DNA of 64,000 nucleotides from positions 124,001-188,000 of the forward strand of contig BDDD01001966.1 of NCBI GenBank assembly GCA_001972305.1, in the 5' to 3' direction. Below, piece after piece: positions 1 to 64,000 of the stretch; the stretch's first letter is position 1, and every line of letters starts with the position of its first letter. This DNA comes from Cephalotus follicularis. Its lineage: Eukaryota; Streptophyta; Magnoliopsida; Oxalidales; Cephalotaceae. The notes beneath the pieces are model-generated. The model did not search any database. It was not told the origin of the DNA and was given only the letters and a program-made list of their open reading frames with translations. The translations under genes and the position numbers were made by a program.

Positions 1-984
1 TAACACTTGCTCTTCGTCCATGCCGATCCAACAGTCCACTGTATCAATCTGTAAAGTAGGGGGTTAGCCTTTGTCGTCACTCGGCTAAGTCATAAAGGTA
101 ACTCGGGATCAACATAATGCATGTCATGATATGAATGCATGAATGATGCAGTGCAGTGGAGACCCCAGTTTATATATATATGAAAATATATATACTTATA
201 ACAGTACAGTAAAATATCAGTGGGGCATATATATATATATATATGTGAGATATATGTATGCAACAACTATACAGTAGTAACCCGGCCAGCGCTGCATCAA
301 CAAGCACAGTAATGCCCGTGAAGAACCAACAGGCAGTACAGGATGTCCGCATAGGACTACAACAGGCAGTATGTCCACATAGGACCACAACAGGCAGTAT
401 GTAATGCCGCCAACTCCTGGCCCCACACAACACTCCCACTCCGGCCCCTACATCAGGCGACCAAGCGAGGCAACAGTACAGTGAGTTACCTAGCCATGCT
501 CCTGGCCCCTAGGTCAACCCTACCACTAGCCGGCGCTGGCAGCCTCCGCCATGCAACTAGTGGCGCTAGCACAAACACATAACAATTCACAGAGCAAACA
601 GTGAATTCAAGCAGTAACAGTACAGTAAACAGGACAGTAGTGATCGTTGAGATCCACAACAGGCAGTTGTTTTCCATAATGTTTCCAAAAGTGACAACAT
701 TTGAAAATAGGCATTTTCAGTAGAAAATACTTATAAACAGTTCAGAAGTAGAAATCGCTTTCCAAACATGTTTGAAAATATGATATTGATATTCATTTTG
801 TACTCAAAATAGTAGTTTCAATTCACATATGCTTTTCTAAAGTAACAACACATTAGAAATCATAATCCGAGTACAAACAGGCAGTAAAACAGTGTATGTG
901 CAATGCATACAAATGCTCAAATGCACTCTAATAGGAATCGGGATCATTTCATATCATTAGATGAAGAAACCTCCAAACAGTACC

Positions 985-1320
985 CAAAAGACGTCGATGT
1001 CTATACAAAAGGCGTCGATGTCTTTGTCCATTAACGTCGATGTCCAAGTCTGTAGTGTCAGCGTGTTCTACTGCAGAAGGCGTCGATGTCCATTTCATAC
1101 GCGTTGACGCTCAAGGTCTGGAACCTTAGCACGACAGCGCATTTGTTCACGGTGTCGACGCGTTAAGGAGGGAACCTTAGGTGTCGACGTGTGATGCGTC
1201 AAAACCCAACAGATAGCCTAAGGCATTGATGTCTTTCTATAGACGTCGATCCTTTTCATATCAGTAACCAGGCAAAACCCAAAAGACGTCGATGTTCATC
1301 AAAAGGCGTCGACGTTTATC
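985..1320 (-). promoter_or_regulatory. GTCGAC-core motif array (second array) in A 3' LTR
   Basis: About eleven copies of a degenerate motif of the form AAGACGTCGATGTC or GGCGTCGACG occur within about 330 bases, separated by unrelated spacers of 10-40 bases. Many variants differ from the palindrome by C-to-T or G-to-A changes at CpG. It corresponds to the array at 6900-7235 in the other LTR. The function is unknown. It lies inside the putative leader intron described for these LTRs. Confidence 0.7.
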
Positions 1321-2084
1321 GAGTAACATTCATCTTCTTCCTCAGGACTTAACACACAATAGGCATTACAAATGATATTCATGCACAATAACAGGGAATC
1401 AAGGCAGGAAACCAACATGCAGATACTCATGACATATCTAGCATATCATGGCATCAATCTAGTGACAATAATCAATTCAATAATCATGCGTTTCATACAC
1501 CAAAACCATAGACCATGCATGAATATCAATCTCAAGATTTCAGTTATGGCTTTCCCTACCTTTTGTTCCACGTTTGGAACTGGAAAGTCCACCTCTTTGC
1601 GTTCCAAACTGGTCACGGCAACCTCTAGGTCCTTCCCGTTGCTGCAAGCCACTAGCTCCAAGCTCCAAGCTACAACCAAGCTCAACAATGGTGGAAATGT
1701 TTTCTCTCCTTAACTCTCTGCTTTCTTACACAGGTGTCTCAGCCGAACCAGGGATGAAAAGAGGAGGCATTTTATGCAGGTCGAACATCTCTCTTCCCTC
1801 TATGGCCCATTTCAAGCATCTCACAGTTCCATTTTCCCATTTTCTCTCTTTCCCAGTTCTGTCCCGTTTCTTTTGCAGGAGCAGACGTTGAAGGTGGCAC
1901 CACAGCCTGCATGCACATCGAAGTGTCATGCCCTTCCTCCCATTCTGGCACCTGCATGCCTGGTATCAAGCCAACATGCTCAACACGTATCAATCATGCC
2001 CCAAGGCGCCTGAGAAAGGCTCTAAAAAGATTCCTCTTCGCACGTTGTTTGTCAGTAGAGTAACATCCCTGGCATTCGAAGTTA

Positions 2085-2235
2085 ATACGTCGACGTCTTT
2101 CCAAAGACGTCGATGTCTTTCACCATTTTACACGAGGACATCGATGTCTTCGTATGCATCGATGTGCATGTGCATGCAGCTACGTGTGCCCTTTGCCTCA
2201 AGGACGTCGATGTGATTCCAAAGGTGTCGACGTGT
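2085..2235 (-). promoter_or_regulatory. GTCGAC-core motif array (U3 array) in A 3' LTR
   Basis: Six motif copies, such as ACGTCGACGTCTTT and GACGTCGATGTC, occur within 150 bases. On the minus strand they lie about 180-340 bases into the LTR, upstream of the putative TATA region. The matching array in the other LTR is 8005-8160. Confidence 0.7.
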
Positions 2236-2419
2236 TTCCCCCAGAACAGCTTCATTTTAGCCTTTTTAACACTCTTTTAGCATATAACTCTAAAATTCAA
2301 CATTATAGGAATTTTGGGAAAACATCACCAAATACGGAAAGTCCATCATTTTATTAATTCCACAAATAAGGTACAAGTACATTGTGAAATTACATTACAT
2401 GAAAATCTCGGGCGTTACA

Positions 2420-5584: not shown

Positions 5585-5963
5585 CTGTTGTCACACCCCG
5601 TTTAAGAGAAACGACATATAAGCAGTAAAGGCAATTAACACGTAAATACAGCTCAGGTAAAACCCATAAAATCTAAAACTTTAACAAGCTGTCAGTTGCG
5701 GAAGTATAATATCCATAAGCTGTAAAACCCGTAGCGTGCATCCCATATTACACGCTACCCAAAACAACCCAACATTGTTAATCGCCCACAAAATGGAGCG
5801 TGATCATAGTACAAGTTTAAATCCATCATAAAACACATCCGTAACAACAGTACATCAGAAATCTTTTAACTTCTCAGTTTATTACATAATAGGAGAATAG
5901 TAACTAAGAACAACAAAACACTTGCTCTTCGTCCATGTCGATCCAACAGTCCACTCCATCAAT

Positions 5964-7479
5964 CTATAAAGTAGGGGGTTAGCCTTTGTCCTCACTCAGC
6001 TAAGTCATAAAGGTAACTCGGGATCAACATAATGCATGTCATGATATGAATGCATGAATGATGCAGTGCAGTGGAGACCCTAGTTTATATATATATATGA
6101 AAATATATATACTTACAACAGTACAGTAAAATATCAGTGGGGCATATATATATATGTGAGATATATGTATGCAACAATAGTACAGTAGTAACCCGGCCAG
6201 GGCTACATCAATAAGCACAGTAACATCCGTGAAGGACCAACAGGCAGTACAGGATGTCCGCATAGGACTACAACAGGCAGTATGTCCACATAGGACCACA
6301 ACAGGCAGTATGTAGCGCTGCCAACTCCTGGCCCCATGCTACACTCCCACTCCGGCCCCTACATCAGGCGATCGAGCGAGGCAACAGTACAGTGAGTTAC
6401 CTAGCCATGCTCCTGGCCCCTAGGTCAACCATACCACTAGCCGGCGCTGGCAGCCTCCGCCATGCAACTAGTGACGCAAGCACAGACACATAACAATTCA
6501 CAGAGCAAATAGTGAATTCAAGCAGTAACAGTACAGTAAACAGGACAGTAGTGATCGTTGAGATCCACAACAGGCAGTTGTTTTCCAAAATGTTTCCAAA
6601 AGTGACAACATTTGAAAATAGGCATTTTCAGTAGAAAATACTTATAAACAGTTCAGTAGTAGAAATCACTTTCCAAAGATTTTTGAAAATACGATATCAA
6701 TATTCGTTTTGTACTCAAAATAGTAGTTTTGATTCACATATGCATTTCTAAAGTAACAACACATTAGAAATAATAATCCGAGTACAAACAGTACAAACAG
6801 GCAGTAAAACAGTGTATGTGCAATGCAGACAAATGCTCAAATGCACTCTAACAGGAATCTGGATCGTTTCGTATCGTTAGATGAAGAAACCTCCAAACAG
6901 TACCCAAAAGACGTCGATGTCTATACAAAAGGCATTGATGTCTTTGTCCATTAACGTCGATGTCCAAGTCTGTAGTGTTAGCGTGTTCTACTGCAGAAGG
7001 CGTCAATGTCCATTTCATACGCATCGACGCTCAAGGTCTGGAACCTTAGCACGATAGTGCATTTGTTCACGGCGTCGACGCGTTAAGGAGGGAACCTTAG
7101 GCGTCGACGTGTGATACGTCAAAACCCAACAGATAGCCTAAGGCGTTGATGTATTTCTATAGACGTCGATCCTTTTCATATCAGTAACCAGGCAAAACCC
7201 AAAAGACGTCGATGTTCATCAAAAGGCGTCGACGTTTATCGAGTAACAGTCATCTTCTTCCTCAGGACTTAACATACAATAGGCATTACAAATGATATTC
7301 ATGCACAATAACAGGGAATCAAGGCAGGAAACCAACATGCAGATACTCATTACATATCTAGCATATCATGGCATCAATCCAGTGACAATAATCAATTCAA
7401 TAATCATGCATTTCATACACCAAAACCATAGACCATGCATGAATATCAATCTCACGATTTCAGTTATGGCTTTCCCTAC
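5964..7479 (-). other. Putative leader intron in A 5' LTR
   Basis: On the minus strand a conserved block ending AAAG/GTAGGG resembles a splice donor. A block CTAACCCCCTACTTTATAG resembles a branch point, pyrimidine tract and acceptor. The same pair is found at equivalent positions in the other A LTR (1559 to 49) and in B, D, F and J. This is inferred from sequence only; splicing is not shown. Confidence 0.4.
6900..7235 (-). promoter_or_regulatory. GTCGAC-core motif array (second array) in A 5' LTR
   Basis: About ten degenerate copies (AAGACGTCGATGTC, GGCGTCGACG and CpG-decayed forms such as GGCATTGATGTC) match the array at 985-1320 in the other LTR, with several site-specific CpG changes between the two. 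Confidence 0.7.
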
Positions 7480-8004
7480 CTTTTGTTCCACGTTAGGAAC
7501 TGGAAAGTCCACCTCTTTGCGTTCCAAACTGGTCATGGCAGCCTCTAGGTCCTTCCCGTTGCTGCAAGTCACCAGCTCCAAGCTCCAAGCTCCAACCAAG
7601 CTCAATAATGGTGGAAATATTTTCTCTCCTTAACTCTTTGTTTTCTTACACAGGTGTCTCAGCCGAACCAGGGATGAAGAGAGGAGGCGTTTTATGCAGG
7701 TCGAACATCTCTCTTCCCTCTCTGGCCCATTGCATGCATCTCAAAATTCCATTTTCCCATTTTCTCTCTTTCCCAGTTCTGTCCCGTTTCTTTTATAGGA
7801 GCAGACGTTGAAGGTGGCACCATAGCCTACATGCACACCCAAGTGTCATGACCTTCCTCCCATTCTTGCACCTGTATGCCTGGTATCAAGCCAGCATGCT
7901 CAACACATATCAATCATGCCCCAAGGCGCCTGAGAAAGGCTCTAAAAAGATTCCTCTTTGCACGTTGTTTGTCAGTAGAGTAACATGTCTGGCATTCGAA
8001 GTTA

Positions 8005-8160
8005 ATACGTCGACGTCTTTCCAAAGGCGTCGATGTCTTTCACCATTTTACACGAGGACGTCAATGTCTTCATATGCATCGATGTGCATGTGCATGCAAC
8101 TACGTGCGCCCTTTGCCTCAAGGACGTCGACATGATTCCTAAGGCGTCGACGTGTTTCCC
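8005..8160 (-). promoter_or_regulatory. GTCGAC-core motif array (U3 array) in A 5' LTR
   Basis: Six copies (ACGTCGACGTCTTT, GGCGTCGATGTC, GACGTCGACATG and variants) lie 180-340 bases into the LTR, about 310 bases upstream of the TATA-like sequence near 7690. Confidence 0.7.
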
Positions 8161-8339
8161 CTAGAACAGCATCGGTTTAGCCTTTTTAACACTCTTTTAG
8201 CATATAACTCTAAAATTCAACATTATAGGAATTTTGGGAAAACATCACCAAATTCGGAAAGTCCATCATTTTATTAATTCCACAAATAAGGTACAAGTAC
8301 ATTGTGAAATTACATTACATGAAAATCTCGGGCGTTACA

Positions 8340-9414
8340 GTAATATCATGGGCTTTGAAAGCCACTTAGAACGTGAGGAAGAAGTGAAGGCATTCTACCT
8401 TTACATGTTTAATGTAACGCCCGGTGTTTCCTGAATGTAATATTTTGATTTATGATGTAATCATTAAACTTGATTTAATGAGAATGTGGAGCTTTTGGAC
8501 TCAAAAGATGCTTGCAAACCCTAGTTATGGACTTAAAGATGGAGTGTGTATGTTAAATCTTGAAACGATGCTGTTTTGGCCAAAAGACATCGACGTCTTT
8601 TGGAAAGACGTCGACTCCTTTGTGAGCTAGGGAACACGTGAATGCATGGGCATGCACGTCGACTCGGGAAGGAGGCATCGACACCTTCTTACGGTTGGAC
8701 AAAGACATCGACGTCCAAGTAAAGACGTCGACTCCTTTGTATGAATGGCCATCACGTTCCTCGTCTGCAGAAGTAAAATGCAAGGGAATTGTTTAAGGGC
8801 TTCACCTAACACCTTTGCAAGTGCTTACTGACATGTTGGCCATAATAGTGGGTTGCCAGGAAGGCCAAGACAGGCTTCTCACATGGCACATGCAAGGATA
8901 GCCACCCTCACATGCAACCTGCAAGAAAGAAGGTAAAAAGAAAACAAAAGAAATGCAGAAAAGAGAAAGGTGGGAGAGAGTTAGAATGGGGCTGTCAAAT
9001 GCCAGAATGTGAATGTCGGGGATCGACATGGAGCAAGCACGGAGATTTAAGGAGAAGACTTGTTATTTTCTCTTATTTTGGGTTGTCGAACATTTATCAT
9101 GTTATTTGGGTTTTGTAACATTGGATATTTGTTATCTTGTACCGTTTTGTTCACGCTCCGTTTTATGGGCGATTGACTTTTATGACCTGTATTTGGGTAG
9201 CGTGCGGTATGGGACGCACGTTTCGTGTTGACAGCTTATGTTCTTTTATGCTTCCGCAACTGCTATGCTTGGAAAAGTTTTAAATTTCACGGTTTCGCAT
9301 GAGCTGTATTATATGTTAATTGCCTTTACCGCTTTAATGCTGCGTTTATTGTAAACGAGGTGTGACATTTAATCTAGGGAATCTCGGGACGAGATTTCTT
9401 TAAGGAGGGGAGGA
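8340..9414 (+). mobile_element. 3' end of a B-type internal region, directly abutting B's 5' LTR
   Basis: Bases 8340-8412 and 9368-9414 together match 14789-14903, the 3' end of B's internal region, including the purine tract AAGGAGGGGAGGA. They are split by the solo LTR 8413-9367. Because an internal end abuts an LTR that is itself followed by a complete internal region and another LTR, the locus looks like an LTR-internal-LTR-internal-LTR tandem whose left part lies beyond A. Confidence 0.75.
8413..9367 (+). mobile_element. Solo LTR (Ty3-type, 955 bp) with target duplication TTTAA
   Basis: The LTR starts TGTAACGCCCGG and ends GTGTGACA. It is flanked by perfect TTTAA copies (8408-8412 and 9368-9372). 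The empty site is visible in the paralogous sequence at 14857-14861. No internal region is present, so it is a solo LTR. It carries a GTCGAC-core array at about 8583-8740 (for example AAGACATCGACGTCTTTTGG) and is shorter than the other Ty3 LTRs because its middle part is missing. Confidence 0.92.
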
Positions 9415-9664
9415 TGTAACGCCCCTAATTTCATAAATAATTATTATGAAATTGGTGCATGTACAGTTGTGATTAAATCGATAGGGCCCGGAGTAATAAA
9501 AAGGCATTAGGCATTTAAGTCGTAATCGTGTTAGCTAAGACGACTAACAAAACCTATTTTTAATACGCAACAATAAAGCCCAAATGTTCGCATTTTCATT
9601 GCGATTATTTTGGTGGTCGTTTGGATAATTTATGTCGCAGTTCACGGAAAAATCGGGACCCATA

Positions 9665-9693
9665 CCTTAGTATTTTACCAGAAAATACTAAGG
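9665..9693 (+). other. Perfect hairpin in B 5' LTR
   Basis: A 12-base arm CCTTAGTATTTT is followed by a 5-base loop and its exact complement. It is conserved in the 3' LTR at 15154-15182, where only the loop differs by one base. The role is unknown; it could act in RNA or as a paired binding site. Confidence 0.75.
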
Positions 9694-9764
9694 AGGAAGC
9701 AAATTAATAAAAGAAGGAAGGGGAGACATGGGCGCATAGCGCGCCCGTGCGAAGCACCTGTAGA

Positions 9765-9789
9765 CGAGAGAGAGAGAGAGAGAGAGAGA
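9765..9789 (+). repeat. GA microsatellite in B 5' LTR
   Basis: A run of GA dinucleotides lies ahead of a GC-rich stretch. The 3' LTR has a shorter run at about 15256-15273. Open frames overlapping it are low-complexity and not credible genes. Confidence 0.85.
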
Positions 9790-10084
9790 CTGGGAGAGAC
9801 AGCAGGAGAGAGAGGGAGAGAGGGCGCCTGAGACGACGCCGGAGCCAGCCACGTGACGGGGAGTAGATGGCGGACCACCCAGGCACGCCTACCGCCGGTA
9901 AGCTCTTCCCCCTTCCCCTCTTTTCTCTTCTTTTTCTCTTCTTCCCTGCCACAGTCGCGCCTTTGCCGTGCGTTTTCCCACGCCGTTAGCGTCGCGGATG
10001 GCGTGGGTTATGGTGTAGAAGGCCTGCTCTACCCATTTCGACCACCGGTAAGGCGTGATTTGGCCGGAAACGGCTGGAATCAAT

Positions 10085-10260
10085 TGGCTGAGTCAACTCA
10101 GGGAGTCGACTCACTGCCGCCTTGGACCGCACATTTAGCGCCGAGTCTTGGAGAGTCACGGGCATGGGTATGTATAACTGGTGAATGTGTGGCATTTTTG
10201 GGTGGTGATCGGACCTGTTGAGGTCCGACGAGTTGACTCAGTGAGTCACAACTCGCTGCC
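10085..10260 (+). promoter_or_regulatory. GAGTCGACTC-type palindrome cluster in B 5' LTR
   Basis: It contains the perfect palindrome GAGTCGACTC at 10103-10112 with neighbours GAGTCAACTCA, GAGTTGACTC and ACTCAGTGAGTCAC. The equivalent region of the 3' LTR is about 15570-15745. It has the same GTCGAC core as the other arrays but different flanks. Confidence 0.55.
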
Positions 10261-10593
10261 GGCCATGGCGGGGCATTTGGCATCGATTCACGGCGAGTCT
10301 TGACCGGTTTTGAGTAGACCGTTCAATGTGGAACCCGTTGATGTGTGTTTCGCAAGCTGGATGAGTTGGCCAAAATCCGTCCGACGTTTCAGCGACGGCA
10401 ATGTTTTGCGTGCGTTGGTCGTAATGAAATGTGTTGTATGTGCAGTGTGCGAGTGGAGATTGGATTTGGCATTAAGGAATTGATCAATTAGCAAGAACCA
10501 TCTTCGGTTCAACGGTGGTTGGGAAAGGTTTGGCAATCGAACCGACGACTCGACTGTGCTGTTGCGGCTGCGATTCCTAACTTGGAATCAGAG

Positions 10594-11484
10594 GTAGGGG
10601 TAATAGTACGGGATTTATACTTGCTTATTTGAGTTCAAGAATGATGTTTATCATTGATGAAATGCGTGAACTTTGTGGATTGAATTGCATGCACGTCTTG
10701 GGATGATTTTCCCTTGGTGTGTGAATGGTGTGATTTGTGTTAGGGTTGCAATGAGTAGCTAACCTGCCTTGCACATTGTGATTGAAATGTTTATGGATTT
10801 AATTGCATGTGTGATTATGCAAGTTGATCTCTTGGTATTGAACGTGTTGAAGGAGAAGATGTTTCTGACCTTCTCTAACCGTCGATGCTTTGACGATAAG
10901 CGCCGACCCTATGGACTGTTAAGTGTAGGAGCGTACACTGACTTCGCGATAAACGTCGACGCTTAAGGAAAGTGTTGACGGCCTGGTTTTAATATGCGTA
11001 GTGATAGACACGTGGATGTTGATGCTGGAGGTCCTACCTCAAAGTGTCGACGCCAAAGTAATGAATGTTGACAATCAAGGATCCTTACCCTGAAGCATCG
11101 ATGTCAAGGACAATTGTTGACACTGAAGTTACTGGTTAAAGCGCCGATGCTTAAAGGGTATAAGCGTTGACGCCTAGGGTTAAGCGGCGACGCTTAAGTG
11201 ACTAATATGAACGATTTGGCTCCTAGATGTTAGGTGTCGACGCCGAAAGGGTCGGGTTACATTTTGAGCATATGTTTGCTTGCATATTATTGTGGATTGG
11301 TCGAGCTTTCCTTGCCTTGCGCCGGTTAGCGTCGATGCAGGTATGAATTGAACTGTGAACTGAATTGTGAATTGAAATGTGATTGAATTCTAATACATGA
11401 TTTACATTATTGTTGATCCCGAAAGGTATTTATACTTTCTCTACTAGCCGAGTGAGGACAAAGGCTAACCCCCTACAATTTCAG
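10594..11484 (+). other. Putative leader intron in B 5' LTR
   Basis: A donor-like CAGAG/GTAGGGG follows a conserved CCTAACTTGGAA block. The acceptor-like CTAACCCCCTACAATTTCAG ends at 11484. The 3' LTR has the same pair at 16079 and 17701. The interval is shorter here because of the 732-base deletion. This is inference from sequence conservation only. Confidence 0.4.
10870..11260 (+). promoter_or_regulatory. AAGCGTCGACGCTT-type motif array in B 5' LTR
   Basis: About thirteen degenerate copies occur within 390 bases (for example AAACGTCGACGCTTAAGG, AAGTGTCGACGCC, AAGCGTTGACGCC, AAGCGGCGACGCTTAAG). The cleanest palindrome is in the 3' LTR copy: AGCGTCGACGCT at 16384-16395. The array lies inside the putative leader intron. 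Confidence 0.7.
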
Positions 11485-11992
11485 ATTGACAGGGGCAATC
11501 GGACAAGTGCTGCTGAAGCTGAGTTGCAAGCTTCTTTTCCGAAGGTTGTTTTAATTGTATTGTAATAACCATACTCGTGTTTTAAGAGAATGATGAGACG
11601 TGCTTGTTAAGAATTTTCAGTTGGATATTGTATCAATTGGTTATTGAAATGATGGAATATTGTACTGGATTAATGTATAATAGTTTATGGCTTTACTAAT
11701 TTGGGATAATGCATTTATCGTACTTGATGGATTTTCCGCACTGAATGAAATATTGTACCAACATGTTTTTATCACGCTCTGTTTTGAGCGCAATTAACAA
11801 TGGAATGTCGTATTTTGGTAACATGTAGTATGGGATGCGTGTTACGTTGTTAATTCGGCCTATAATTGAATGCTTCCGCAAGTTATTAATCGTTCTGAAA
11901 TTTTTAAATTTCCGCGTAAAACTGTATAAGCCGGATATTATGTTGATTGCTACCATTATTATTGTTGTTATGGGAACGGGGTGTGACAACAG

Positions 11993-14903: not shown

Positions 14904-17900
14904 TGTAACGCCCCGAATTTCATAAATAATTATTATGAAATTAGTGCGTGTATAGTTGTGATTAAATCGATAGGGCCCGGAGTAATAAAAAGGCATTACA
15001 CATTTAAGTCGTAATCGTGTTAGCTAAGATGTCTAATAAAACCTATTTTTAATGCGCGACAATAAAGCCCAAATGTTCGCATTTTTATTGCGATTATTTT
15101 GGTGGTCGTTTGGATAATTTATGTCGCAATTCGCGGAAAAATCGGGACCCATACCTTAGTATTTTACCATAAAATACTAAGGAGGAAGCAAATTAATAAA
15201 AGAAGGAGGGGGAGACACGGGCGCATAGCACACCCATGCAAAGCACCTGCAGACGAGAGAGAGAGAGAGAGAGACTGAGAGAGACAGTGGGAGAGAGAGG
15301 GAGAGAGGGCGCCGGAGACGACGCCGGAGCCAGCCACGTGACTGGGAGAGGACGGCGGACCACCCAGGCACGCCTACCGCCGGTAAGCTCTTCCCCCTTC
15401 CCCTCTTTTCTCTTCTTTTTCTTTTCTTCCCCGCCACTATCGCGCCTTCGCCATGCATTTTCCCACGCCGTTAGCGTCGCGGATGGCGTGGGTTATGGTG
15501 TAGAAGGCCCGCTCTACCCATTTCGACCACCGGTGAGGCGTGATTCGGCCGGAAACAGCCGGAATCAATTGGCTGAGCCGACTCAGTGAGTCAACTCACT
15601 GCCACCTTGGAACACGCATTTAGCGCCGAGTCTTGGCGAGTCACGAGCATGGGTGTGTATAACTGGTGAATGTGTGGCATGTTTGGGTGGCGATCGGATC
15701 TGTTGAGGTCCGGCGAGTTGACTCAGTGAGTCACAACTCACTGCCGGACGTGGCGTGGCGTTCGGCGCCGATTCACGACGAGTCTTGACTGGTTTTGAGT
15801 AGACCGTTCAATGTGGAACCCATTGATGTGTGTTTCACAAGCTGGATGAGTTGGCCAAAATCCGGCCGACGTTTTGGCGACGACAATGTTTTACGTGCGT
15901 TGCTCATATTGAAATGTGTTGTATGTGCAGTGTGCGAGTGGCGATTTGATTTGGCATTAAAGAATTGATCAATTAGCAAGAACCGGCTTCGGTTCAACGG
16001 TGGTTGGGAAAGGTTCAGCAATCGAACCGACGGCTCGACTGTGCTGTTGCGGCTGCGATTCCTAACTTGGAATCAGAGGTAGGGGTAATAGTAGGGGATT
16101 TATACTTGCTTATTTGAGTTCAAGAATGATGTTTATCATTGATGAAATGCGTGAACTTTGTGGATTGAATTGCATGCACGTCTTGGGATGATTTTCCCTT
16201 GGTGTGTGAATGGTGTGATTTGTGTTAGGGTTGCTATGAGTAGCTAACCTGCCTTGCACATTGTGATTGAAATGATTGTGGATCGAATTGCATGTGTGAT
16301 TATGCATGTTGATGTCTTGGTATTGAACGTGTTGAAGGAGAAGATGTTTCTGATCTTCTCTAAACGTCGATGCTTAGACGATAAGCGTCGACGCTATGGA
16401 CTGTTAAGTGAAGGAGCGTACACTAACTTTGCGATAAACGTCGATGCTTAAGGAAAGCGTTGACGCTCTGGTTTGAATATGCGTAGTGATGGACACGTGG
16501 TTGTTGACGCTTGAGGTCCTACTTCAAAGCGTCGACGCCAAAGTAATGAATGCTGACGCTCAAGGATCCTTACCTTGAAACGTCGACGTCAAGGACAATT
16601 GTTGACACTTAAGTTACAGGTTAAAGAGCCGATGCTTAAAGGGTATAAGCGTTGATTCCTAGGGTTAACTGGTGACGCTTAAGTGACTATTATGAATGAT
16701 TTGGCGCCTAGAGGTTAGGTGTCGACGCCGAAAGGGTCGGGTTGCATTTTGAGTATATGTTTGCTTGCATATTATTGTGGATTGGTCGAGCTTTCCTTGC
16801 CTTGTGCTGGTTAGCTTCGATGTAGGTATGAATTGAACTGTGAACTGAATTGTGAATTGAAATGTGATTGAATTCTAAAGTGTTTTATCATTTTAGAAGT
16901 GCATACATGATTTTATAACAAATCATTATTTTACACAAAAATGTAGATTTGTTAAATGTATATTTTCGAAGGATTGAAACGCGATTTCAAAGACTGTTTA
17001 CATTTTGAATAAATGTATTATTTCAAGTATTTTATAACCTATAAATTACTTGGAAAGGATTGATTTTTGGATTGATTGAGCTTTCCTAGCACCACAGGAC
17101 GGTTAGCTGTGTGCTTTCCTAGCTCAGGGCCGGTTAGCATCAATGATTGAATTGTTTGATTGATTGTGATTGTTACGTTGTTAGTGCGGTGACGGAGGTT
17201 GTCACTTACGCTAATGGTAGGTTGTGCTCTAGGGGCCAGGAGATGGCTAGGGACACCACACCAGATGGTCTTCCTCTGCTACGTGCCAGTTGACATCCAC
17301 ACTGTGAGCTATCCTCCGCATATGTGGCGGTTAGACTCATTTGTTTGTTGAACTTTCCTCCGCTACGTGCCGGTTAGTTTCAATTATTGATTGAGCTTTC
17401 CTCCGCCTATGGGGCGGTTAGCATCAACATGAGATAATACTAACCTACGGGTGGTGGTTATCGAATACTGATTGAATTGATTGGTCCTTAGTGACATGAC
17501 TGATGATTGTGTTGATGTAGCCACTTGGCATGGTTGCGTAACTATTGATCGAGATACATATACAAATACATATTGTATATATATATTGTACTGCATCATT
17601 ATGCATTCATTACATGATTTACATTATTGTTGATCCCGAAAGGTATTTATACTTTCTCTACTAGCCGAGTGAGGACAAAGGCTAACCCCCTACAATTTCA
17701 GATTGACAGGGGCAATCGGACAAGTGCTGCTGAAGCTGAGTTGCAAGATTCTTTTCCGAAGGTTGTTTTAATTGTATTGTAATAACCATACTCGTGTTTT
17801 AAGAGAATGATGAGACGTGCTTGTTAAGAATTATCAGTTGGATGTTGTATCAATTTGTTATTGAAATGATGGAATATTCTACTGGATTAATGTATTATAG

Positions 17901-47954: not shown

Positions 47955-49100
47955 TGAATAAACAACAGGGGGGGTTAATTTTAATTTCTAATAATTTAGT
48001 TATTTTTTTCGCAAATTTAAGTTAATACTATGAACAAAATGTATATATGCAATCAAAGGCAAATAAATAAAATAATTAAAGAGAGAGATTAAGAGAGTTG
48101 CAAACACGGTTTTAGAGTGATTCAGCTTAACTCTTACCTACGTTCACTTTTCCCAATGATCTCCTTGAGTTCCACTAGTCTTCGAATAAATTTGCTGGCG
48201 CTATTCGGTGCACCTTTACACTTGTTCGTGATTGACCTCAATCACTTAAAATTTTTGGATTCAGTCCCCCAGGGTTCACTCCCCTATTACAATCAAGGTG
48301 TATAATGAAGAATTTGTGTTTGATCTTAACCTCTCAAAGGTTGGATTTTACAAGATAATAACTCTAAAATACATAAGAACAAAAATAGGCTAAGGCACAA
48401 AAAGAACTTTGATATGAAGCTTTGATGATCTTGGATTGATGTTGTTTTCTCTTTGTATATTGATCACTTGTATTCCTGTTGTTTGTTCTTCTTGTTCTCT
48501 TTGTGTTTATAGCCGTTTTTTACTTGAAAGATCCGTTAGTTGTGTCTTGGGGCTTGTTGCTTCAAAGACGGTGCATTAAAAATTTGCCAGAAATTGCCCT
48601 CAGTGCGCAAAGCATCGACGGTGTTCTTCAAAGCGTAGCCGCTTATATGACCGTTGGAAGTTTGAATTTGAATCTTTGCTCTAAGCACTGGCGGCCTTGA
48701 ATTCTGGGGTCGACGGTTGTTCTCAAAGTGCTGACGGTTTGCGTTGAGCGTCAACGCTTTGGGAAATTTTGAATGGCCCAAAAGTCCTTCTTTTTAACCG
48801 CTGATGTAGCCCTCTTAAGCACTGGCGTTTAGCCTCAAAGCGCTGACACTTTCCTTAGAGCGTCGACGGTTGGACAATTTCTTCTTTGCTTGTAATGCTC
48901 CAACTGTTGGCGCTTTGTTCCCAGCTTTCGACGGTTCCCTTAAGCGCTGACATTTACTTTTAAAGTGTCGACGCTTTAACCTATAATTCCAATTTTTTGG
49001 TTTATTTTGCAACATTCTTTCTTTTCTTGCACATAAAGAAACTTTGTTAAATTACAAATATGTTATCATCAACACTAGGATTGAGACATAAATGTTAACA
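47955..49100 (-). repeat. 3' LTR of element I (1146 bp)
   Basis: It matches 57349-58501 closely. On the minus strand it starts TGTTAACATTTATG and ends TTGTTTATTCA. It holds a GTCGAC-type array (48600-48975) and a TATAAA sequence (48506-48511, minus strand). Confidence 0.92.
48600..48975 (-). promoter_or_regulatory. AAGCGTCGACG-type motif array upstream of TATA box in I 3' LTR
   Basis: About fourteen degenerate copies occur within 375 bases (AAGCATCGACGGTG, AGAGCGTCGACGGTTGG, AAAGTGTCGACGCTTTA, AAGCGCTGACACTT and others). On the minus strand the array ends about 90 bases before TATAAA. This version resembles that of the unrelated Ty3 element B. Confidence 0.72.
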
Positions 49101-51572: not shown

Positions 51573-52761
51573 TGTTGACTATTTAGTCTCAATCCTTGTT
51601 TTGATGATAACATATTTGCATTTAACAAATCTACTTGACGTGCAAGGAATTACAATAGAAGTACCAAAGTAAAAATACCATTTGCACAAAAGACATTGAT
51701 CTCCCAGTTAAGAAGTCGACGTCCGTACACAAAGACATCGACGCCTTCCAAGAAGACATCGACGCCTTTGATGCCTAAAGTTATAGGACAATTACACACG
51801 AAGACATTGACTTCCAAAGGCAGAAAAACATCGACGTCCGTACGAAAGACGTCGACCCCTATCTTAAAGACATCGACGTCTTTGGGTACCAGAGTTACAG
51901 AACATTTTCATGCAAAGACATCGACTTCTAAAGCCAAAGACATCGACGTCCGTACTAAAGACATCGACGCCTTTCAGTGGACATCGACGACTTCCTAGAG
52001 AAACCTGGATTTCCCAGAAAACACATAGAGTATTACAGAAGAAGTCAACGAGTTACTCAAAGTCTAAAACCTGGAGATTTCCCAGAAAAGACATCGACGC
52101 TTTCTCAAAAGAAGTCGACGCCTTTTCAAAAAGACAAAAACCGGGAAACATGGAACGACTACTTCAAGCACTACAACGGCTACAAGATACAAAGACATAG
52201 ACGCCTTTCTGAAAGAAGTCGACGTCTTTACACCAGCAGACAATAAAATCAAAGAGTGCAGCTACCATTTTTTAATCAAAAGTCTCCACAATTCAAGCAA
52301 CGGCTACAAACCTTTTATGGATATAAAAGGGAGACTAAAACCTCTGAGAACAAAGAGAACAACAAGTGAAAAACATCATCAAGCAAAACAAACATACAAA
52401 AGATCAAATCACATCCAAAGAGCTTTTTCTTGTCACATCTTTAAGCTATTTTCTTGTTCTCACTAAATTGAGTTATTATCTTGTAATATCCAACCTGTGA
52501 GAGGTTTAGCTACACACACTGCATCTTATTCTTTGATTGTAATAGGGGAGTGAACTCTAGTGAATTTGGGGAGTGAACCCAAAGAGAATTGTAAGTGATT
52601 GAGGTCAATCACAAAGGTGTACCGAATAGCACCCGCAATTTTATTCGGAGAACTAGTGGAAACTCAAAGAGGTCCTTGGGAAAAGTGGACGTAGGCAAGA
52701 GTTTGGCCGAACCACTCTAAACTAGTGTTTGCATATCTCTCAACTCTATCTCTTTACATCA
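51573..52761 (+). repeat. 5' LTR of element L, truncated at its 3' end
   Basis: The start TGTTGACTATTTAGTC resembles I's LTR start on its minus strand. It contains the motif array, TATAAAA (52322-52328) and a downstream part (GTGATTGAGGTCAATCAC, GGTGTACCGAATAGC) homologous to I's LTR. It is cut at about 52761 and joined directly to RT. Confidence 0.8.
51690..52230 (+). promoter_or_regulatory. GACATCGACGTC-type motif array upstream of TATA box in L LTR
   Basis: About eighteen copies occur (AAGTCGACGTCCGTAC, AAGACATCGACGCCTT, AAGACATCGACGTCTTTGG, AAGAAGTCGACGTCTT and others), ending about 90 bases before TATAAAA at 52322. The version matches that of Ty3 elements A and F rather than that of the related element I. 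Confidence 0.75.
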
Positions 52762-53999: not shown

Positions 54000-54300
54000 T
54001 TTTTCTGCTATTTTTGCAAAAAGAGTCGACTACTTTTCTGGGAATTTTTATGCTTTGTTTAAATCGCGTCGACTGCTTTTTCTGGAAAAATCCTACCATT
54101 TGAAAATGACGTCGACCCTTATACAAAAACGTCGACTCCTTTGTCTCTTACTAAAACAACTCGACTATTTTAAAACCGCGTCGATGCTCTCCTAAAACGC
54201 ACCGCTTTTACAGCTTTTTTAAAAATCACGACGACTTCTTCCTGAATCACGTCGACGTCTTTGTGCCAGAAATCGACTTCTTCATAAAAAGTCGATCTCA
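54000..54300 (+). promoter_or_regulatory. GTCGAC-core motif array between pol and ORF3 of L
   Basis: About nine copies occur (AGAGTCGACTAC, GCGTCGACTGC, ACGTCGACCC, ACGTCGACTCC, GCGTCGATGC, ACGTCGACGTCTTTG and others) between the RNase H stop and the ORF3 start at 54504. It parallels the pol-ORF3 array of G. I see no convincing TATA box after it. Confidence 0.68.
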
Positions 54301-56275: not shown

Positions 56276-56284
56276 TTCTTCATT

Positions 56285-57347: not shown

Positions 57348-57348
57348 T

Positions 57349-58501
57349 TGAATAAACGACAAGGGGGAGGGGGGGTGAATAGTAGTTTCTAATAATTTAC
57401 TTATCTTTTTTGCAAATTTAAGTTAATACTATGAACACAATGTATATATGCAATCAAAGGCAAATAAATAAAATAATTAAAGAGAGAGAGTAAGAGAGTT
57501 GCAAACACGCTTTTAGAGTTGTTCGGATTAACTCTTTCCTACGTCCACTTTTTCCAAGGATCTCCTTGAGTTTCCACTAGTCTCTGAATAAATTTGCAGG
57601 GGCTATTCGGTGCACCTTTACACTTGTTCGTGATTGACCTCAATCGCTTACAATTTTTGGGTTCACCCCCCTATTACAATCAAGGTGTACAATGAAGAAT
57701 TTGCATTTGATCTTATCCTCTCAAATGTTGGATTTCACAAGATAATAACTCTCAAATACATAAGAACAAAAATAGGCTAAGGCACAAAAAGAACTTTGAT
57801 ATGAAGCTTTGATGATCTCGGTTGGGTTCTTTGCAATTGATGTTGTTTTCTCTTTGTATATTGATCACTTGTATTCTTGTTGTTTGTTCTTCTTGTTCTC
57901 TTTGTGTTTATAGCCGTTTTTTACTAGAAAGATCCGTTGGTTGGGTCTTGGGACTTGTTGCTTCAAAGATGACGCATTAAAAATCTGCCAGAAATTGTCT
58001 CCAGTACACAAAGCATCGACGGTGTTCTTCAAAGCATCGGCGCTTATATGACCGTTGGAAGTTTGAATTTGAATCTTTTCTCTAAGCGCTGGCGGTCTTG
58101 AATTTTTGGGTCAACGGTTGTCCTTAAAGCGCTGATGGTTTGCATTGAGCGTTGACGTTTTAGGCAATTTTGATTGGCCCAAAAAACCCTGTTTTTAACC
58201 GCTTATGTAACCCTCTTAAGCGCTGGCGCTTAGACTCAAAGGGCTGATGCCTTCCTAAGAGCGTCGACGGTTGGACAGTTTCTTCATTGCTTGTAATGCT
58301 CCAACTGTTGGCGCTAATTTCGCAGCTTTCGAAGGTTCCTTTAAATGCTGACGCTTACTTTTAAAGCGTTGATGCTTTAACCTGTAATTCCAATTTTCTG
58401 GTTTGTTTTGCAACATTCTTTCTTTTCTTTCACATAAAGAAACTTTATTAAAATACAAATTTGTTATCATCAAAACTAGGATTGAGACATAAATGTCAAC
58501 A
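57349..58501 (-). repeat. 5' LTR of element I (1153 bp)
   Basis: On the minus strand it runs from TGTTGACATTTATGTC to TTGTCGTTTATTCA. It contains the motif array at 58010-58380, upstream of a TATAAA sequence near 57906-57911. Confidence 0.92.
58010..58380 (-). promoter_or_regulatory. AAGCGTCGACG-type motif array in I 5' LTR
   Basis: About fourteen copies match the array at 48600-48975, with many differences at CpG positions (for example AAGCATCGGCGCTT here against AAGCGTAGCCGCTT there). Confidence 0.72.
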
Positions 58502-60699: not shown

Positions 60700-60872
60700 T
60701 GTAACGCCCGTAATTTTCACGTATTGTAATTTCACAATGTAAATGTACTTTATTTGTGGAATTAATAAAAGGATGAATCTTCCGAATTTGATGATGTTTT
60801 CCCAACTACGATGGTGTTGATTTTAAGTTAATAATGTACTTAGAAGCGTCATTACTTGGTAAATTTACTGGA

Positions 60873-60980
60873 GGCATTCGACTGGCACAGAAGACCAACC
60901 GACTGGATGGCTGCGTGTGGAAGCAGTCGACTGGTGGGACGAACCAGTCGACTGGCCAACTGTCGTGACACTTGGCAACA
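60873..60980 (+). promoter_or_regulatory. CAGTCGACTG motif array (U3) in J LTR
   Basis: Five copies occur, including two perfect palindromes CAGTCGACTG (60924-60933 and about 60945-60954) and the variants ATTCGACTGG and ACCGACTGG. It lies about 290 bases upstream of CATAAAA near 61265. Confidence 0.72.
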
Positions 60981-61506
60981 GACTGCCAGGCGAACAACAG
61001 ACTGCCAGGGAAAGGCAGCCAAGTAGATCTTGCTCTGTTTTAATTGCATGTGATGAGATCACATGCAACCACTGAGAAGGAATCTTGCAGGCACCATCTG
61101 ATGATGGATGAAACGTGTATGCCATGCACATGACTACTAGAACATGCAGAAACTGAGGGGAAGGGGTGGAATGACATGTGTGTGTGCATGCAAGTGTTAG
61201 AAGGGAGGATGGCATTTAGTGCCATGTGAGGGAGCTAGGGGGAAGGGAAGAGAGAAAGTTTCTGCATAAAACGTCTCCCCTCACTTCTCTCGTCCAGACA
61301 CTGAAAGACCAAGGAACCAGGGAAATTGTGAGTGAAATAGTGAGAAATTGAGAGAGGAAATAGTAAGAATTGAGAGGATTACTCATTGTCAAGCTTGGAG
61401 CTCGGTTGGAACCTACTGGACTGTCCTTGGAGCTACTGGGAGGCTCAAAGATACTGGAAAGGAGACATAAAGAGGTGGACTTCCGATTTCTAACTTGAAA
61501 TCAAAG

Positions 61507-62860
61507 GTAGGGGAAAATAGTAGAGAATTCTATGCATGCATTTTGAGTTTAAGTGTAATGATGTTATAAATGGATGGTGTAGTTGTTGGATGTGGATTTC
61601 TGTGTTGATGTTGTGGTTACTGTTAATGACTAACCTGACATGCACACTGAATTTTGAATGGAGTTATGGATTGGTTTTCATGCAATACCATGTTTGGATA
61701 TCATCTAAATTATGAATGAAAACGGAGAATAATGCATGAACTGAGTTGTGTTTTAGACCATAATATGATTATTGTTGATATTCTGAGGTCTGTATACGTG
61801 TGGATAAGTTTCAATTGCTTGTTGAATGGATTTAGAAGTGAATTACTGGTACTGTCCAGCCCAGAACAGCCGACTGTTTAAGTAAAACAGTCAACTACTC
61901 GATCATCCAGTCGACTGTCATGTAAGAACAGTCGACTGTGCATGTTTTTTTACCCAGAACAGTCGACTGTCGAAGGAAGACAGCCGACTGCTGAATGCTC
62001 GTGATGAACAAGCCTACTGTTATGGAAAAACAGTCGACTGTTACTGCAAAAACTAGACCTTTAGAGAAGGTGATAGGCCTAGGTTAATTACCAACAACCC
62101 TAGGTGCATTCTGAGCATATGTTTGCCCTGCATTTGAACTACTACTGTACTGTGGATTGCATTATGGTTGATTTCTAAAAAGTATTAACCATCTTGGAAA
62201 ACTTGCATGATTACTAAAATCATTATCTTGCAAAAATATGTATTTGTCAACATATGATTTTATATATTTTCGAAATAACTGGGGAAGTAATTCCAAATAC
62301 GGAGAAATGTTTTAAAGGATTGATTACACAATCAATTGTGTTGTTTTAAGTTTTATAACTTATCACAACGTGTGAACGGAGTAATATATTTTAAACAAAT
62401 ATATTTGATCAAGTAATTATATTTATTTCTTGACTTGTACTGTGCAATGCTTGTGCCTGTTGATTACTCAGCCGTTATGCTAGTAACTTGCTTTTGGTGT
62501 AGCCGCCGTGCTAAGCAACATACGGAGCACTTGCTCCAAAATTGTTCGCAAACGGGGATGGGGTAAGAGTGCATGACGTTGGGGCGAAGAGGTGGCGACG
62601 GTTATGACGACTGGTTTGTCTGGTTCCTTTTGGGACATATTTACTGCTTGTGTTGATATAACTTATGAGGTCATACTTGTACTGTGAATATGCATACATT
62701 TTTATATGTATATACGGAGATATAATTATTGTGAAAATTACATGTCATACTGCATCACTATGCATTCATTCATGATACGCATTACCTTGACCTTGAACTG
62801 TGTACATAAACTTTTCTACATAGCCGAGTGAGGACAAAGGCTAACCCCCTACTGTAACAG
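61507..62860 (+). other. Putative leader intron in J LTR
   Basis: Bounded by the same donor-like and acceptor-like modules as in A, B, D and F, it contains the second CAGTCGACTG array. This is inference only. Confidence 0.42.
61860..62050 (+). promoter_or_regulatory. CAGTCGACTG motif array (second array) in J LTR
   Basis: Eight copies occur (CAGCCGACTG, CAGTCAACTA, CAGTCGACTG four times, CAGCCGACTG, AGCCTACTG), at the place where F carries GACATCGACGTC-type motifs. Confidence 0.74.
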
Positions 62861-63344
62861 ATTGATGGAGTGGGTTTTGATATGGAGCACAAAAGGAGAC
62901 TTAAGGAGAAGACTAAGCTATTTCTCTTATTTTATGTACTGAGTAAATGAACAATGACTATGTAACTGGATTATTGTAATGTGGGTATTTATTATCTCGT
63001 TTTGTATCTTATCACGCTCCGTTTTGGGCGATCAACTATGATGTTGGGTTTTATATAAACTTGTTGGGCATCACGTAGTATGGGATGCGTGGTGCATCTT
63101 TTTTCAACTTATATCATGTTATTGCTTCCGCTACTGAAGTTTTTGTTTTTACGATATCGCATAAGCTGAATTATGTTGCGTTGATTGCCTTATCGCTTTA
63201 ATGTTGTCTTAATGTTGGAAACGGGGGCGTGACAACGTGGTGTCAGAGCATATTCTATATATGCTTATCTAGGATACTTTCCTTGGCAATCAATAAATTA
63301 TTTCCTAAAGTCGTGACTAACCGTCATCCTTCTTATAGGAACAA

Positions 63345-63861
63345 ATGGATCGGAGGAGAACACGTGGTAGGGCTAGAGCTGTTGGAGCCAATGCCCCCGA
63401 GGAAGCGAATATGCCGCAAGGAGTGAATGTCCCCCAAGATGATAGGGACCCGATGACCTGGATTGCGGATTACTTCCAGCAACAGATGGCCTTTAACATG
63501 GCTAATGCGGAGGAGATGCGCCAGTACTACGCGCAAGCTCGGCCGCAACATAGAGCTCCCGATCACTGCCCGGGAGAGGATAGTAGTCAGTTTGGAAGGG
63601 ACATCAAAAGGTTTATGAGACAGAATCCACCCAGCTTCCGGGGAGAGCTTGATGCTACGATTGCTGAAAGATGGCTTCAAGACTTCGAGAAGATTTTTGA
63701 AGTGATGGATTGTACCGATACTCAGAAGCTGAAGTTTGCTGTGTACCATCTATGGGGAGAGGCCACTCACTGGTGGGAGATGGTCAAAGCGAAGTGGGAG
63801 TCAGTTGGACTCGATGCTACATGGGAGAGATTCCAGATAGAGTTCCTAGCTTCTTGTTTCA
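63345..63861 (+). pseudogene. gag of element J, 3' truncated
   Basis: The frame starts MDRRRTRGRARAVGANAPEE and continues [58 protein letters not shown] and LWGEATHWWEMVKAKWESVG. It runs intact to EFLASCF, where the sequence changes to an LTR tail. It is the best-preserved gag N-terminus of this group here and shows what A, B and F have lost. Confidence 0.87.
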
Positions 63862-64000
63862 TGGTTTTTTTTTTGCATAAGCTGAATTATGTTGTGTTGA
63901 TTGCCTTACCACTTTAATGTTGACCTCTTGCAAAAACGGGGTGTGACAACGTGGTATCGAGCATATTCCATATATGCTTAGCTAGGATACTTTCCTTGGC
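63862..64000 (+). repeat. LTR tail plus primer-binding site at the window end
   Basis: From a T-run onward the sequence matches the last 85 bases of F-type LTRs, ending GGGTGTGACA at 63948. A primer-binding site with a one-base deletion (TGGTATCGAGC, 63952-63962) and leader sequence follow. It is joined to J's gag without a target duplication, so it probably arose by recombination rather than insertion. Confidence 0.75.

Follow-up and report, generated by a model that had tools for sequence, protein, structure and literature searches.

GTCGAC-centred palindrome arrays of the Sirevirus RM-box type in the LTRs of both copia and Ty3 retrotransposons

The Ty3 LTRs in a 64-kb stretch of DNA from the carnivorous plant Cephalotus follicularis, hereafter the window, hold the same kind of array as the palindromic repeated motif (RM) boxes of Sireviruses, and the two superfamilies share a GTCGAC core together with some of the bases that flank it. 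The window contains 65 copies of GTCGAC where 6.35 are expected (maximum of 12 in 100 dinucleotide shuffles), and perfect palindromes of at least 10 bp centred on TCGA number 32 against 3.2 expected (maximum of 7 in 30 shuffles). The original prediction of dense GTCGAC clusters in the LTRs of both superfamilies is confirmed with respect to enrichment, clustering, and dyad symmetry, and the four palindromes that it quoted are present at 45811–45822, 60924–60933, 16384–16395, and 10103–10112. The flanking pair beside the core is mostly A..T or C..G, and many array units are GCCGAC or ATCGAC variants without exact palindromy. Placement is highly selective: LTRs or LTR pieces contain 55 of the 65 exact sites and the linkers of two copia elements a further 8, so that LTRs and env-upstream linkers hold 63, while six further gag/pol stretches, totalling 16,640 bases, contain none. 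The two remaining sites are found at 13315, in the internal region of element B, and at 50608, within coding ORFs of element H, the latter counting against a regulatory reading of the arrays. The features are listed below by position and strand, with element letters (A, B, C, D, G, H, L, N, S) that follow our own scheme, independent of that of the original prediction, and with arrays assigned to flank classes I to III.

1..2419, minus strand: 3' LTR of Ty3 element A, cut by the window edge, its boundary set by self-match; exact sites at LTR positions 189–326 and 1107–1261
5589..8339, minus strand: 5' LTR of Ty3 element A; two blocks of class I arrays, 6 exact GTCGAC against 0.45 expected
8413..9367, plus strand: solo Ty3 LTR S, flanked by the TSD TTTAA; LTR position 177–320 holds a class I array
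9415..11988, plus strand: LTR copy 1 of Ty3 element B; array provisionally of class III
14904..18204, plus strand: LTR copy 2 of Ty3 element B, with an additional insertion; array like that of copy 1
22002..22661, plus strand: left part of LTR 1 of Ty3 element C, which resumes past nested G; no exact and 5 near-matching sites
26041..27248, minus strand: 3' LTR of Sirevirus G; class II array with 14 core-variant sites and 17 near-matching decamers
29146..29217, minus strand: internal class II array of Sirevirus G, in the interval from RT/RNaseH to the Transposase_32 (env-position) ORF
34142..35411, minus strand: 5' LTR of Sirevirus G; class II array
35412..36427, plus strand: right part of LTR 1 of Ty3 element C; 1 exact site
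40137..42729, plus strand: LTR 2 of Ty3 element C; two blocks of class I arrays
45496..47960, plus strand: 3' LTR of Ty3 element D as far as nested H; class I, two blocks
47967..49100, minus strand: 3' LTR of Sirevirus H; 5 core-variant sites, provisionally class III
51573..52756, plus strand: LTR N, Sirevirus-like and nested in H; 14 sites forming a class I array (counts from 51590–52756)
54025..54300, plus strand: internal class I array of N, in the interval from RT to the Transposase_32 ORF (54393–55409)
57350..58501, minus strand: 5' LTR of Sirevirus H; 1 exact site, within the shuffle range
60700..63234, plus strand: 5' LTR of Ty3 element L; class II (CAGTCGACTG), two blocks

The copia elements of the window are Sireviruses or similar to them. 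By the Sirevirus criteria, the PPT AGGGGGAG followed by AT and the TG of the 3' LTR lies at 27258 in G and at 49110 in H; PPT copies in the linker number four in G (27630, 27599, 27560, 27258) and three in H (49231, 49212, 49110); and the junction of the 5' LTR with the PBS is exactly CA/ATTGGTATCAGAGC in G (34141, minus strand) and ATTGGTATCATAGT, with two differences, in H. Element N is a shortened nested copy in which RT directly follows the LTR; PPT and PBS junctions were not found in it, and its LTR start and 3' part resemble those of H.

For these copia elements, RM boxes provide a close match, contrary to the original claim that no named LTR feature resembles the arrays. RM boxes are palindromic units of Sirevirus LTRs and env-upstream linkers that have been called Sirevirus-specific; they comprise at least eight units, located mostly in the upper LTR half from 200–400 bp after its start, and the grape motif, CGGTCGACCG, contains GTCGAC (Bousios 2010, PMC2829016). 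Similarly, the present arrays consist of high-copy palindromic units that lie mostly in the upper LTR half before the TATA box, and also in the linker preceding the env ORF, with a constant core and flanks that vary between elements. G and N carry 14 core-variant sites each, 13 of the 14 in the G 3' LTR being upstream of a TATA-like site at LTR position 598; the first site lies at LTR position 188 in G, and in N at 126, or at about 143 when counted from the corrected LTR start, both slightly closer to the start than published, and 4 (G) and 8 (N) extra core-variant sites stand between RT and Transposase_32, upstream of the env-position ORF. H falls short of eight units, with the 5 core-variant sites of its 3' LTR and the single exact site of its 5' LTR; the latter LTR holds 6 near-matching decamers against a maximum of 3 in 100 shuffles. 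Unlike RM boxes, which bear a CGG-CCG signature (likewise lacking from the published Tnd-1), the arrays are built on a GTCGAC core, occur also in the Ty3 LTRs A, S, B, C, D, and L, fall into several flank classes within a single genome, at least two of them common to both superfamilies, and prefer a spacing of 19–22 bp that the accessible part of the RM-box paper does not discuss; the comparison set of that paper was made up of classic copia elements (PMC2829016). The palindromes of maize Sireviruses are also clustered in the LTR regulatory region and variable in sequence (PMC5311732, PMC10760457), but they are described for Copia (Sireviruses), with CACCGGACNNNGTCCGGTG as the commonest Copia consensus (PMC10760457). 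In the published literature, 10 papers contain one or more of six unit strings; judged by titles and abstract openings, none of these deals with retrotransposon LTRs.

The Ty3 ORFs show the domain order RT, RNase H, integrase, and the elements may be of the Tekay lineage, a guess from LTR length; a chromodomain, which together with that order would mark chromoviruses, is matched in A at E=5.5e-05 but stays under the Pfam cut-off (23.4 vs 25.1 bits). In A, C, D, and L the array positions coincide, at about 190–330 and 1070–1370 from the LTR start. The class I flank, about 20 bp long, is common to the Sirevirus-like LTR N and four Ty3 LTRs (A, S, C, D), and the class II decamer CAGTCGACTG is common to Sirevirus G and Ty3 L; the corresponding cross-superfamily matches of flank profiles, N with A, S, C, and D and G with L, are significant at p=0.0005 each. 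The class II likeness stops at the decamer, since outside it the G–L value of 3.1 is below that of G–C (7.4). A third pairing, Sirevirus H with Ty3 B in class III, is provisional, as it is based on 5 H sites that, outside the decamer, are closer to L than to B. Moreover, array class can differ between LTRs that are still alignable in other parts. C and L belong to separate classes although they match at 85% across the last 1.1 kb and at 79% between the blocks; for H and N, whose alignment covers about 0.3 kb at 77%, the provisional classes likewise differ.

GTCGAC arrays are not confined to this window. A sample of 20 stretches, each of 10 kb, was drawn from every 50th contig of this genome (C20–C970) at one fixed position, which restricts it to longer contigs. 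In it, GTCGAC tops the 64 palindromic hexamers in over-representation (112 vs 17.9 expected), and 27 arrays are spread over 13 of the 20 stretches, compared with a shuffle mean of 0.02 (50 shuffles, maximum 1) and a single array in the reversed-letter control. Because these control counts are far lower, an equal density of clusters elsewhere, which the original prediction had named as its refutation, can be set aside. Scored by the rule used for these arrays, TATATA (32) and ATATAT (29) both exceed GTCGAC, as AT-rich runs would. Genome-wide pair counting, which covered spacing bins of 19–22 and 24–27 bp, located paired CAGTCGACTG at 38,192 places in the former and 2,736 in the latter, with 136 places in the reversed control at 19–22 bp. 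An IMG/VR search with paired CAGTCGACTG returned two contigs, neither with similarity to the window, and searches that used a Ty3 integrase and a Sirevirus RT as queries retrieved no related locus.

The units combine dyad symmetry that covaries past the core with a preference for two-helical-turn spacing. Watson–Crick covariation of the flanks in the window (99 sites) is 0.75 vs 0.41 at k=4 and 0.59 vs 0.28 at k=5; for the 111 distinct exact sites of the 20 stretches, it is 0.69 vs 0.38 (p=0.0005) and 0.41 vs 0.31 (p=0.0075), respectively, and in the same sample none of 8 other palindromic hexamers shows an excess at p <0.05 for k=4–6. Little further covariation exists inside class I or class II. 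Neighbour distances of 19–22 bp account for 37 of 65 in the window after de-duplication and for 85 of 202 in the sample. Among the remaining spacings of the sample, a 10.5-bp period is detected at p=0.0022, and a scan over periods gives p=0.0175 with the best at 10.9. In the window, helical phasing outside 19–22 bp is weak, at p=0.006 for a fixed period and p=0.059 after correction for the scan, and an all-pairs scan without de-duplication scored periods of 23.5–24 above 10.5.

These properties are consistent with the dimeric DNA-binding factor that the original prediction derived from palindromic half-sites, and we lean towards reading the arrays as enhancer-like cis-regulatory arrays of the LTR U3, to which a dimeric DNA-binding protein, probably of the host, would bind. 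In such a model, Ty1 Sireviruses and Ty3 elements would use RM-box-type arrays with a shared GTCGAC core, each unit being bound by a dyad-symmetric protein, most likely a host-encoded dimer. Units two helical turns apart would place the proteins on one DNA face and therefore favour cooperative binding upstream of the promoter, whose position in the Ty3 LTRs is presumed, with transcriptional activation as the likely outcome; the linker arrays of G and N would act on the ORF that follows them. The presence of the same palindromic words in LTRs of the unrelated Ty1 and Ty3 superfamilies suggests a single DNA-binding protein as the reader of both. A more specific version, quite possible but short of probable, is that one host protein family, with paralogues differing in GTCGAC-flank preference, reads the LTRs of both superfamilies, both of which would have built helically phased U3 dyad arrays and switched among the same classes. 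If this is true, the LTR motif is set by the host regulatory environment and not by element ancestry, and RM arrays are a convergent device and no Sirevirus hallmark. RM palindromes had been described as a Sirevirus feature without a known reader, and their sharing with Ty3 points to a common trans-acting one; the tens of thousands of paired-word places offer a large natural unit set for finding it and for testing whether regulatory modules arise convergently in retrotransposons or pass between them.

A reader of the AP2/ERF CBF/DREB class is a doubtful candidate, proposed because RYCGAC (CBFHV) and GTCGAC (CRTDREHVCBF2) are catalogued as its sites (PMC6628100). The core is identical, and the enriched words GTCGAC, GCCGAC, and ATCGAC are all RYCGAC; however, the fourth such word, ACCGAC, is not enriched, and the catalogued definitions lack dyad flanks. 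Within arrays, GCCGAC is enriched 11.3x, ATCGAC 9.6x, and ACCGAC 0.5x, the 60.6x of GTCGAC being circular since arrays were selected by it; in the sampled stretches, the values are 6.26 for GTCGAC, 1.92 for GCCGAC, 1.90 for ATCGAC, and 1.12 for ACCGAC. A plain DREB site was not accepted, as GCCGAC and ATCGAC each differ from GTCGAC by one transition and the canonical ACCGAC shows no enrichment. Palindromes described at insertion sites (PMC6911290) concern target sites and cannot explain arrays inside LTRs.

The main alternative, which we consider unlikely, is that the palindromes act as RNA, with neighbouring units forming hairpins in sense or antisense LTR transcripts that supply or tune small-RNA silencing, a role proposed for the palindromes of maize Sireviruses. 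Array RNA is often more stable when folded than shuffled sequence, a property that the DNA model does not need, and mostly more so in antisense (z of -12.4 for N, -8.9 for L, -6.7 for C, and -6.5 for A), the linker array of G reaching -10.7 in sense and -9.8 in antisense; small-RNA hotspots are also reported at maize Sirevirus palindromes (PMC5311732, PMC10760457). However, several sense values are modest, that of G (-1.3) being weaker than a non-array piece of the same LTR (-3.7), and class I and II units deviate from symmetry in sense RNA more often through A.C than through G.U, except in the right piece of C LTR 1. Helical spacing would not be expected of hairpins, and maize Ty3 elements have no obvious peak of such structures in the accessible part of PMC10760457. 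Scans of the window with Rfam and for tRNAs returned no match.

It is quite unlikely that the arrays are functionless by-products of minisatellite-like expansion and decay, their classes having spread by inter-element copying. Tandem units of 126 and 114 bp do lie inside two arrays, and tandem duplication accounts for part of the array uniformity and spacing; the alternative origin named by the original prediction, one recently copied satellite, is nonetheless not what is found. Its description of spacers as unrelated holds for S and both linkers, where they are near-random, but fails for A, B, C, D, G, and N, where they are alike (p <=0.023), and L is weakly alike (p 0.04). After insertion, array units diverged at 59 of 600 columns vs 402 of 7,370 in the rest of the LTR; units thus decay faster than the LTR remainder, as by-products might, and their uniformity was therefore set before insertion. 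Against a by-product origin stand the dyad covariation between classes, the near-random spacers just named, the coinciding positions in diverged LTRs, the near-absence from coding regions, and the recurrence of this arrangement in both superfamilies as well as in Sireviruses published from other plants.

VANDAL transposons carry arrays of short motifs bound by VANC, a sequence-specific anti-silencing factor. The present arrays are similar in that dense short motifs occupy non-coding transposon parts and diverge between families; VANDAL, in contrast, is a DNA transposon, and its reader is element-encoded. That the reader here is likewise element-encoded, for example the Transposase_32 ORF as a VANC-like sequence-specific anti-silencing factor exploited by Ty3, is highly improbable, for although Transposase_32 ORFs lie directly downstream of the linker arrays in G and N, the domain is absent from the Ty3 ORFs scanned, and RMs also occur in Sireviruses without an env ORF (Bousios 2010, PMC2829016). 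The structure model of the Transposase_32 ORF has a mean pLDDT of 40, too low for fold judgement. RM clusters are described as coinciding with CpG islands (PMC2829016); here, whole-LTR CpG o/e is 0.47–1.13, and the arrays are rich in CpG locally.

The GTCGAC arrays in the window are real and lie far above chance. The window holds 65 exact copies of GTCGAC, whereas 100 dinucleotide shuffles average 6.35 and never surpass 12. The original prediction of dense clusters is borne out, and its four quoted palindromes were all found in place. Similarly, perfect palindromes centred on TCGA number 32 at 10 bp or longer and 12 at 12 bp or longer, as compared with 3.2 and 0.77, respectively, in 30 shuffles. 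Of the exact sites, 55/65 lie in LTRs or LTR pieces, 8/65 in the linkers of two Sirevirus-type elements, and 2/65 elsewhere:

13315, internal region of the Ty3 element B
50608, within the coding ORFs of the Sirevirus H

Six other gag/pol stretches of the window (16,640 bases combined) contain no GTCGAC, the 5' LTR of H holds a single exact site, which is not above the shuffle maximum, and the left piece of LTR 1 of the Ty3 element C holds none. Besides the Ty3 elements A, B, C, D and L and the solo Ty3 LTR S, the elements concerned are of the Ty1/copia superfamily:

26041-35411, minus strand, G, a Sirevirus by its junctions
47967-58501, minus strand, H, a Sirevirus by its junctions
from 51573, plus strand, N, a truncated Sirevirus-like copy nested in H, with an H-like LTR start and 3' part

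G and H are classed as Sireviruses on the basis of junction sequences: in both, the PPT AGGGGGAG is followed by AT and the TG of the 3' LTR (four PPT copies in G, three in H), and the PBS junction CA/ATTGGTATCAGAGC is present in G and, with two differences, in H. A second array lies between RT/RNaseH and the Transposase_32 ORF in G and N. TATA-like sites are located 3' of the arrays at LTR positions 598 in G and 733 in N; those of H are at 452 and 590, with one of its five array sites beyond 452. In the Ty3 LTRs (A, S, B, C, D, L) the first bases are TGTAACG (TGCAACG in C LTR 1) and the last are TGACA, and unbroken ones reach up to 2.75 kb; Ty3 pol encodes RT, RNase H and integrase, to which A adds a chromodomain match below threshold. 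The Ty3 arrays of A, C, D and L fall at corresponding LTR positions, in one block at about 190-330 and another at about 1070-1370, and TATA-like sites beyond the second block (C 1616, D 1571, L 1562) are only candidates for the Ty3 promoter. S (8413-9367) has a 5-bp target duplication, TTTAA, and was apparently inserted into the pol end of B; in the B stretches 9368-11988 and 14857-18204, LTR copy 1 has a pol-end-like stretch before it and a PBS after it, as would be expected if recombined elements lay in tandem.

The original prediction had held that no named LTR feature was known to match these arrays, a statement that fails for the copia half of the finding, which is covered by the palindromic repeated-motif (RM) boxes of Sireviruses (PMC2829016). 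In the available text of Bousios et al. (2010), such boxes are described in 13 Sireviruses with at least eight copies, LTR copies lying in the upper half, before the TATA box, in 117 of 127 cases and linker copies preceding the env ORF in 77 of 79; the motif of a grape element is CGGTCGACCG, the authors found no common single-factor binding site, and the motif is reported absent from classic copia elements, with Ty3 outside that comparison (PMC2829016). The arrays are therefore known in kind for Sireviruses; unlike RM boxes, however, the Cephalotus arrays occur in Ty3 LTRs too. Reports of arrays in Ty3 LTRs were not found among the titles and abstract starts listed from the open-access literature, a weak negative, and within the reach of that search the new features are the arrays in Ty3 LTRs, flank classes common to both superfamilies, and the two-turn spacing.

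Flanks were compared by core-excluded profile similarity, with p from 2,000 column shuffles, and by these profiles the classes cross superfamilies, uniting Sireviruses or Sirevirus-like copies with Ty3 elements. In class I, N matches Ty3 A, S, C and D at 13.8-26.8 (each p=0.0005), as against 3.0 for L and 5.1 for B; in class II, G matches L at 18.7 (p=0.0005) and the five other Ty3 arrays at no more than 1.4. Reverse-complement comparison scored almost the same as forward, as expected of palindromes, so the profile test gives no evidence on common orientation. Class I similarity continues beyond the decamer (N-C 23.9, N-S 23.5, N-A 18.0, N-D 10.3); C contains an exact match to a 20-base stretch of N, and S has 87.5% identity to N over a 40-base stretch of two units. 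Class II similarity stops at the decamer, outside which G-L (3.1) falls below G-C (7.4). Class III (H and B, 11.8) is provisional, because H contributes five sites to it, most shuffles are likewise exceeded by H-A (9.3) and H-D (8.6), and H outside the decamer is nearer L (11.9) than B (9.1). Array classes differ between C (class I) and L (class II) despite LTRs that align elsewhere (85% identity from 1470/1400 to the ends, 79% over a short inter-block stretch, alignable starts); those of H, provisionally, and N also differ despite 77% identity over about 0.3 kb of the 3' parts and 84% over 60 start bases.

Dyad symmetry extends past the core: complementary flanks are in excess in the window, with 0.75 versus 0.41 at k=4 and 0.59 versus 0.28 at k=5 after re-dealing of right flanks (99 sites); this covariation reflects between-class differences, and classes I and II show little more internally. 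Among 111 distinct exact sites sampled from the genome, the values are 0.69 versus 0.38 (p=0.0005) and 0.41 versus 0.31 (p=0.0075), with chiefly A..T (39) and C..G (36) pairs at k=4, and none of eight other palindromic hexamers had a flank excess at p<0.05 for k=4-6 in the 20 sampled stretches. Where units of classes I and II deviate from symmetry, A.C outnumbers G.U in the sense strand (G.U in antisense), except in the right piece of C LTR 1; in B, G.U is the commoner, and H shows a mixture. Alternatively, array transcripts may yield small RNAs, perhaps as a consequence, a reading ranked second to recognition by proteins. RNA folding of the arrays exceeds shuffles in stability, with z-scores (sense/antisense) for the Ty3 arrays of L (-5.3/-8.9), C (-3.1/-6.7), A (-2.7/-6.5) and B (-4.3/-2.9), for the LTR arrays of N (-4.1/-12.4) and G (-1.3/-4.0), and for the linkers of G (-10.7/-9.8) and N (-2.9/-4.6); non-array control pieces gave -0.7/-1.4 in C and -3.7/-3.9 in G.

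Recognition by proteins would be suited by the two-turn dyad spacing, which could place them on the same helix face. Neighbours lie 19-22 bp apart in 37 of 65 de-duplicated window distances (up to 80 bp) and in 85 of 202 sampled distances (up to 100 bp). Outside this peak, the sampled distances support a 10.5-bp period (p=0.0022; 0.0175 after scan correction; best period 10.9), for which the window gives weak support (p=0.006; 0.059 after scan correction; best period 10.3). In an undeduplicated all-pairs window scan, periods of 23.5-24 outscore 10.5 (0.498 versus 0.424). The arrays may also have grown by duplication, to which similar spacers within several arrays and long tandem units inside two point. 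Pairs at 13 bp (GTCAAC/GTCGAC or GTCGAC, with GA..TC-like flanks; window 10092-10110 and sampled stretch L024:9956-9974) are unlike the main spacing.

Throughout the 1.577-Gb genome of Cephalotus follicularis, the Albany pitcher plant (Oxalidales), GACGTCGACGTC occurs 9,879 times, versus 204 for the backwards-read pattern, and CAGTCGACTG pairs occur at 38,192 places at 19-22 bp (control 136) and 2,736 at 24-27 bp (control 7). Of the latter matches listed, nearly all are spaced by 27, many with spacers of a single family; such pairs recur, e.g., in contigs C1:184236-184272 and C4:29513-29549, with similar spacers around CACGCATCAGA, possibly marking one abundant element family. Twenty ten-kb stretches (L007-L026) were sampled at one fixed place per contig, from every 50th contig (C20 to C970), so that only longer contigs are represented. 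GTCGAC there ranks first of 64 palindromic hexamers by observed/expected (112 versus 17.9); among all hexamers, CGACGC (10.2x), GCGTCG and TCGACG exceed it. Clustering in these stretches was compared with shuffled controls, arrays being defined by at least four core or single-transition sites, at least two of them exact, and gaps up to 130: 27 arrays were obtained in 13 of 20 stretches, whereas 50 shuffles averaged 0.02 and the reversed-letter set gave one. Under this array rule TATATA (32) and ATATAT (29) rank above GTCGAC, as would be expected of low-complexity words. Some arrays lie in or beside DNA resembling the window's Ty3 LTRs or genes (L011, L015, L016, L019 and L024, and more loosely L017 and L026); one array, in L013, adjoins a Sirevirus-like LTR end and gag, the remaining arrays are unassigned, and L018 has one exact site, in an LTR-H-like stretch.

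As for the reader, CBF-type sites include GTCGAC and RYCGAC in the available part of one catalogue (PMC6628100). GCCGAC (11.3x) and ATCGAC (9.6x) are enriched within arrays and ACCGAC is not (0.5); the 60.6x of GTCGAC is circular, since arrays were selected by it. Sampled ratios are 6.26 for GTCGAC, 1.92 for GCCGAC, 1.90 for ATCGAC and 1.12 for ACCGAC. Because the enriched words are transition neighbours of GTCGAC, a CBF-type protein is only a lead. The Transposase_32 ORF (54393-55409) has 424 protein matches, and all 120 listed among them are Cephalotus follicularis (CFOL_v3) proteins at 70-94% identity; its structure model is of too low confidence (mean pLDDT 40) for judging a candidate reader role.

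LTR mates differ at 59 of 600 array-decamer columns versus 402 of 7,370 elsewhere, with CpG involved in 34/59 and 114/402 differences, respectively; units thus decay once the element has inserted, probably via methylated CpGs, and their uniformity dates from its active life. Elsewhere in the window, 20634-20991 is a GTCGAC-free tandem repeat (period 123 bp, 2.8 copies), and 22958-23450 is rich in CpG (51 CG in 23001-23500), its overlapping ORFs matching no Pfam domain.
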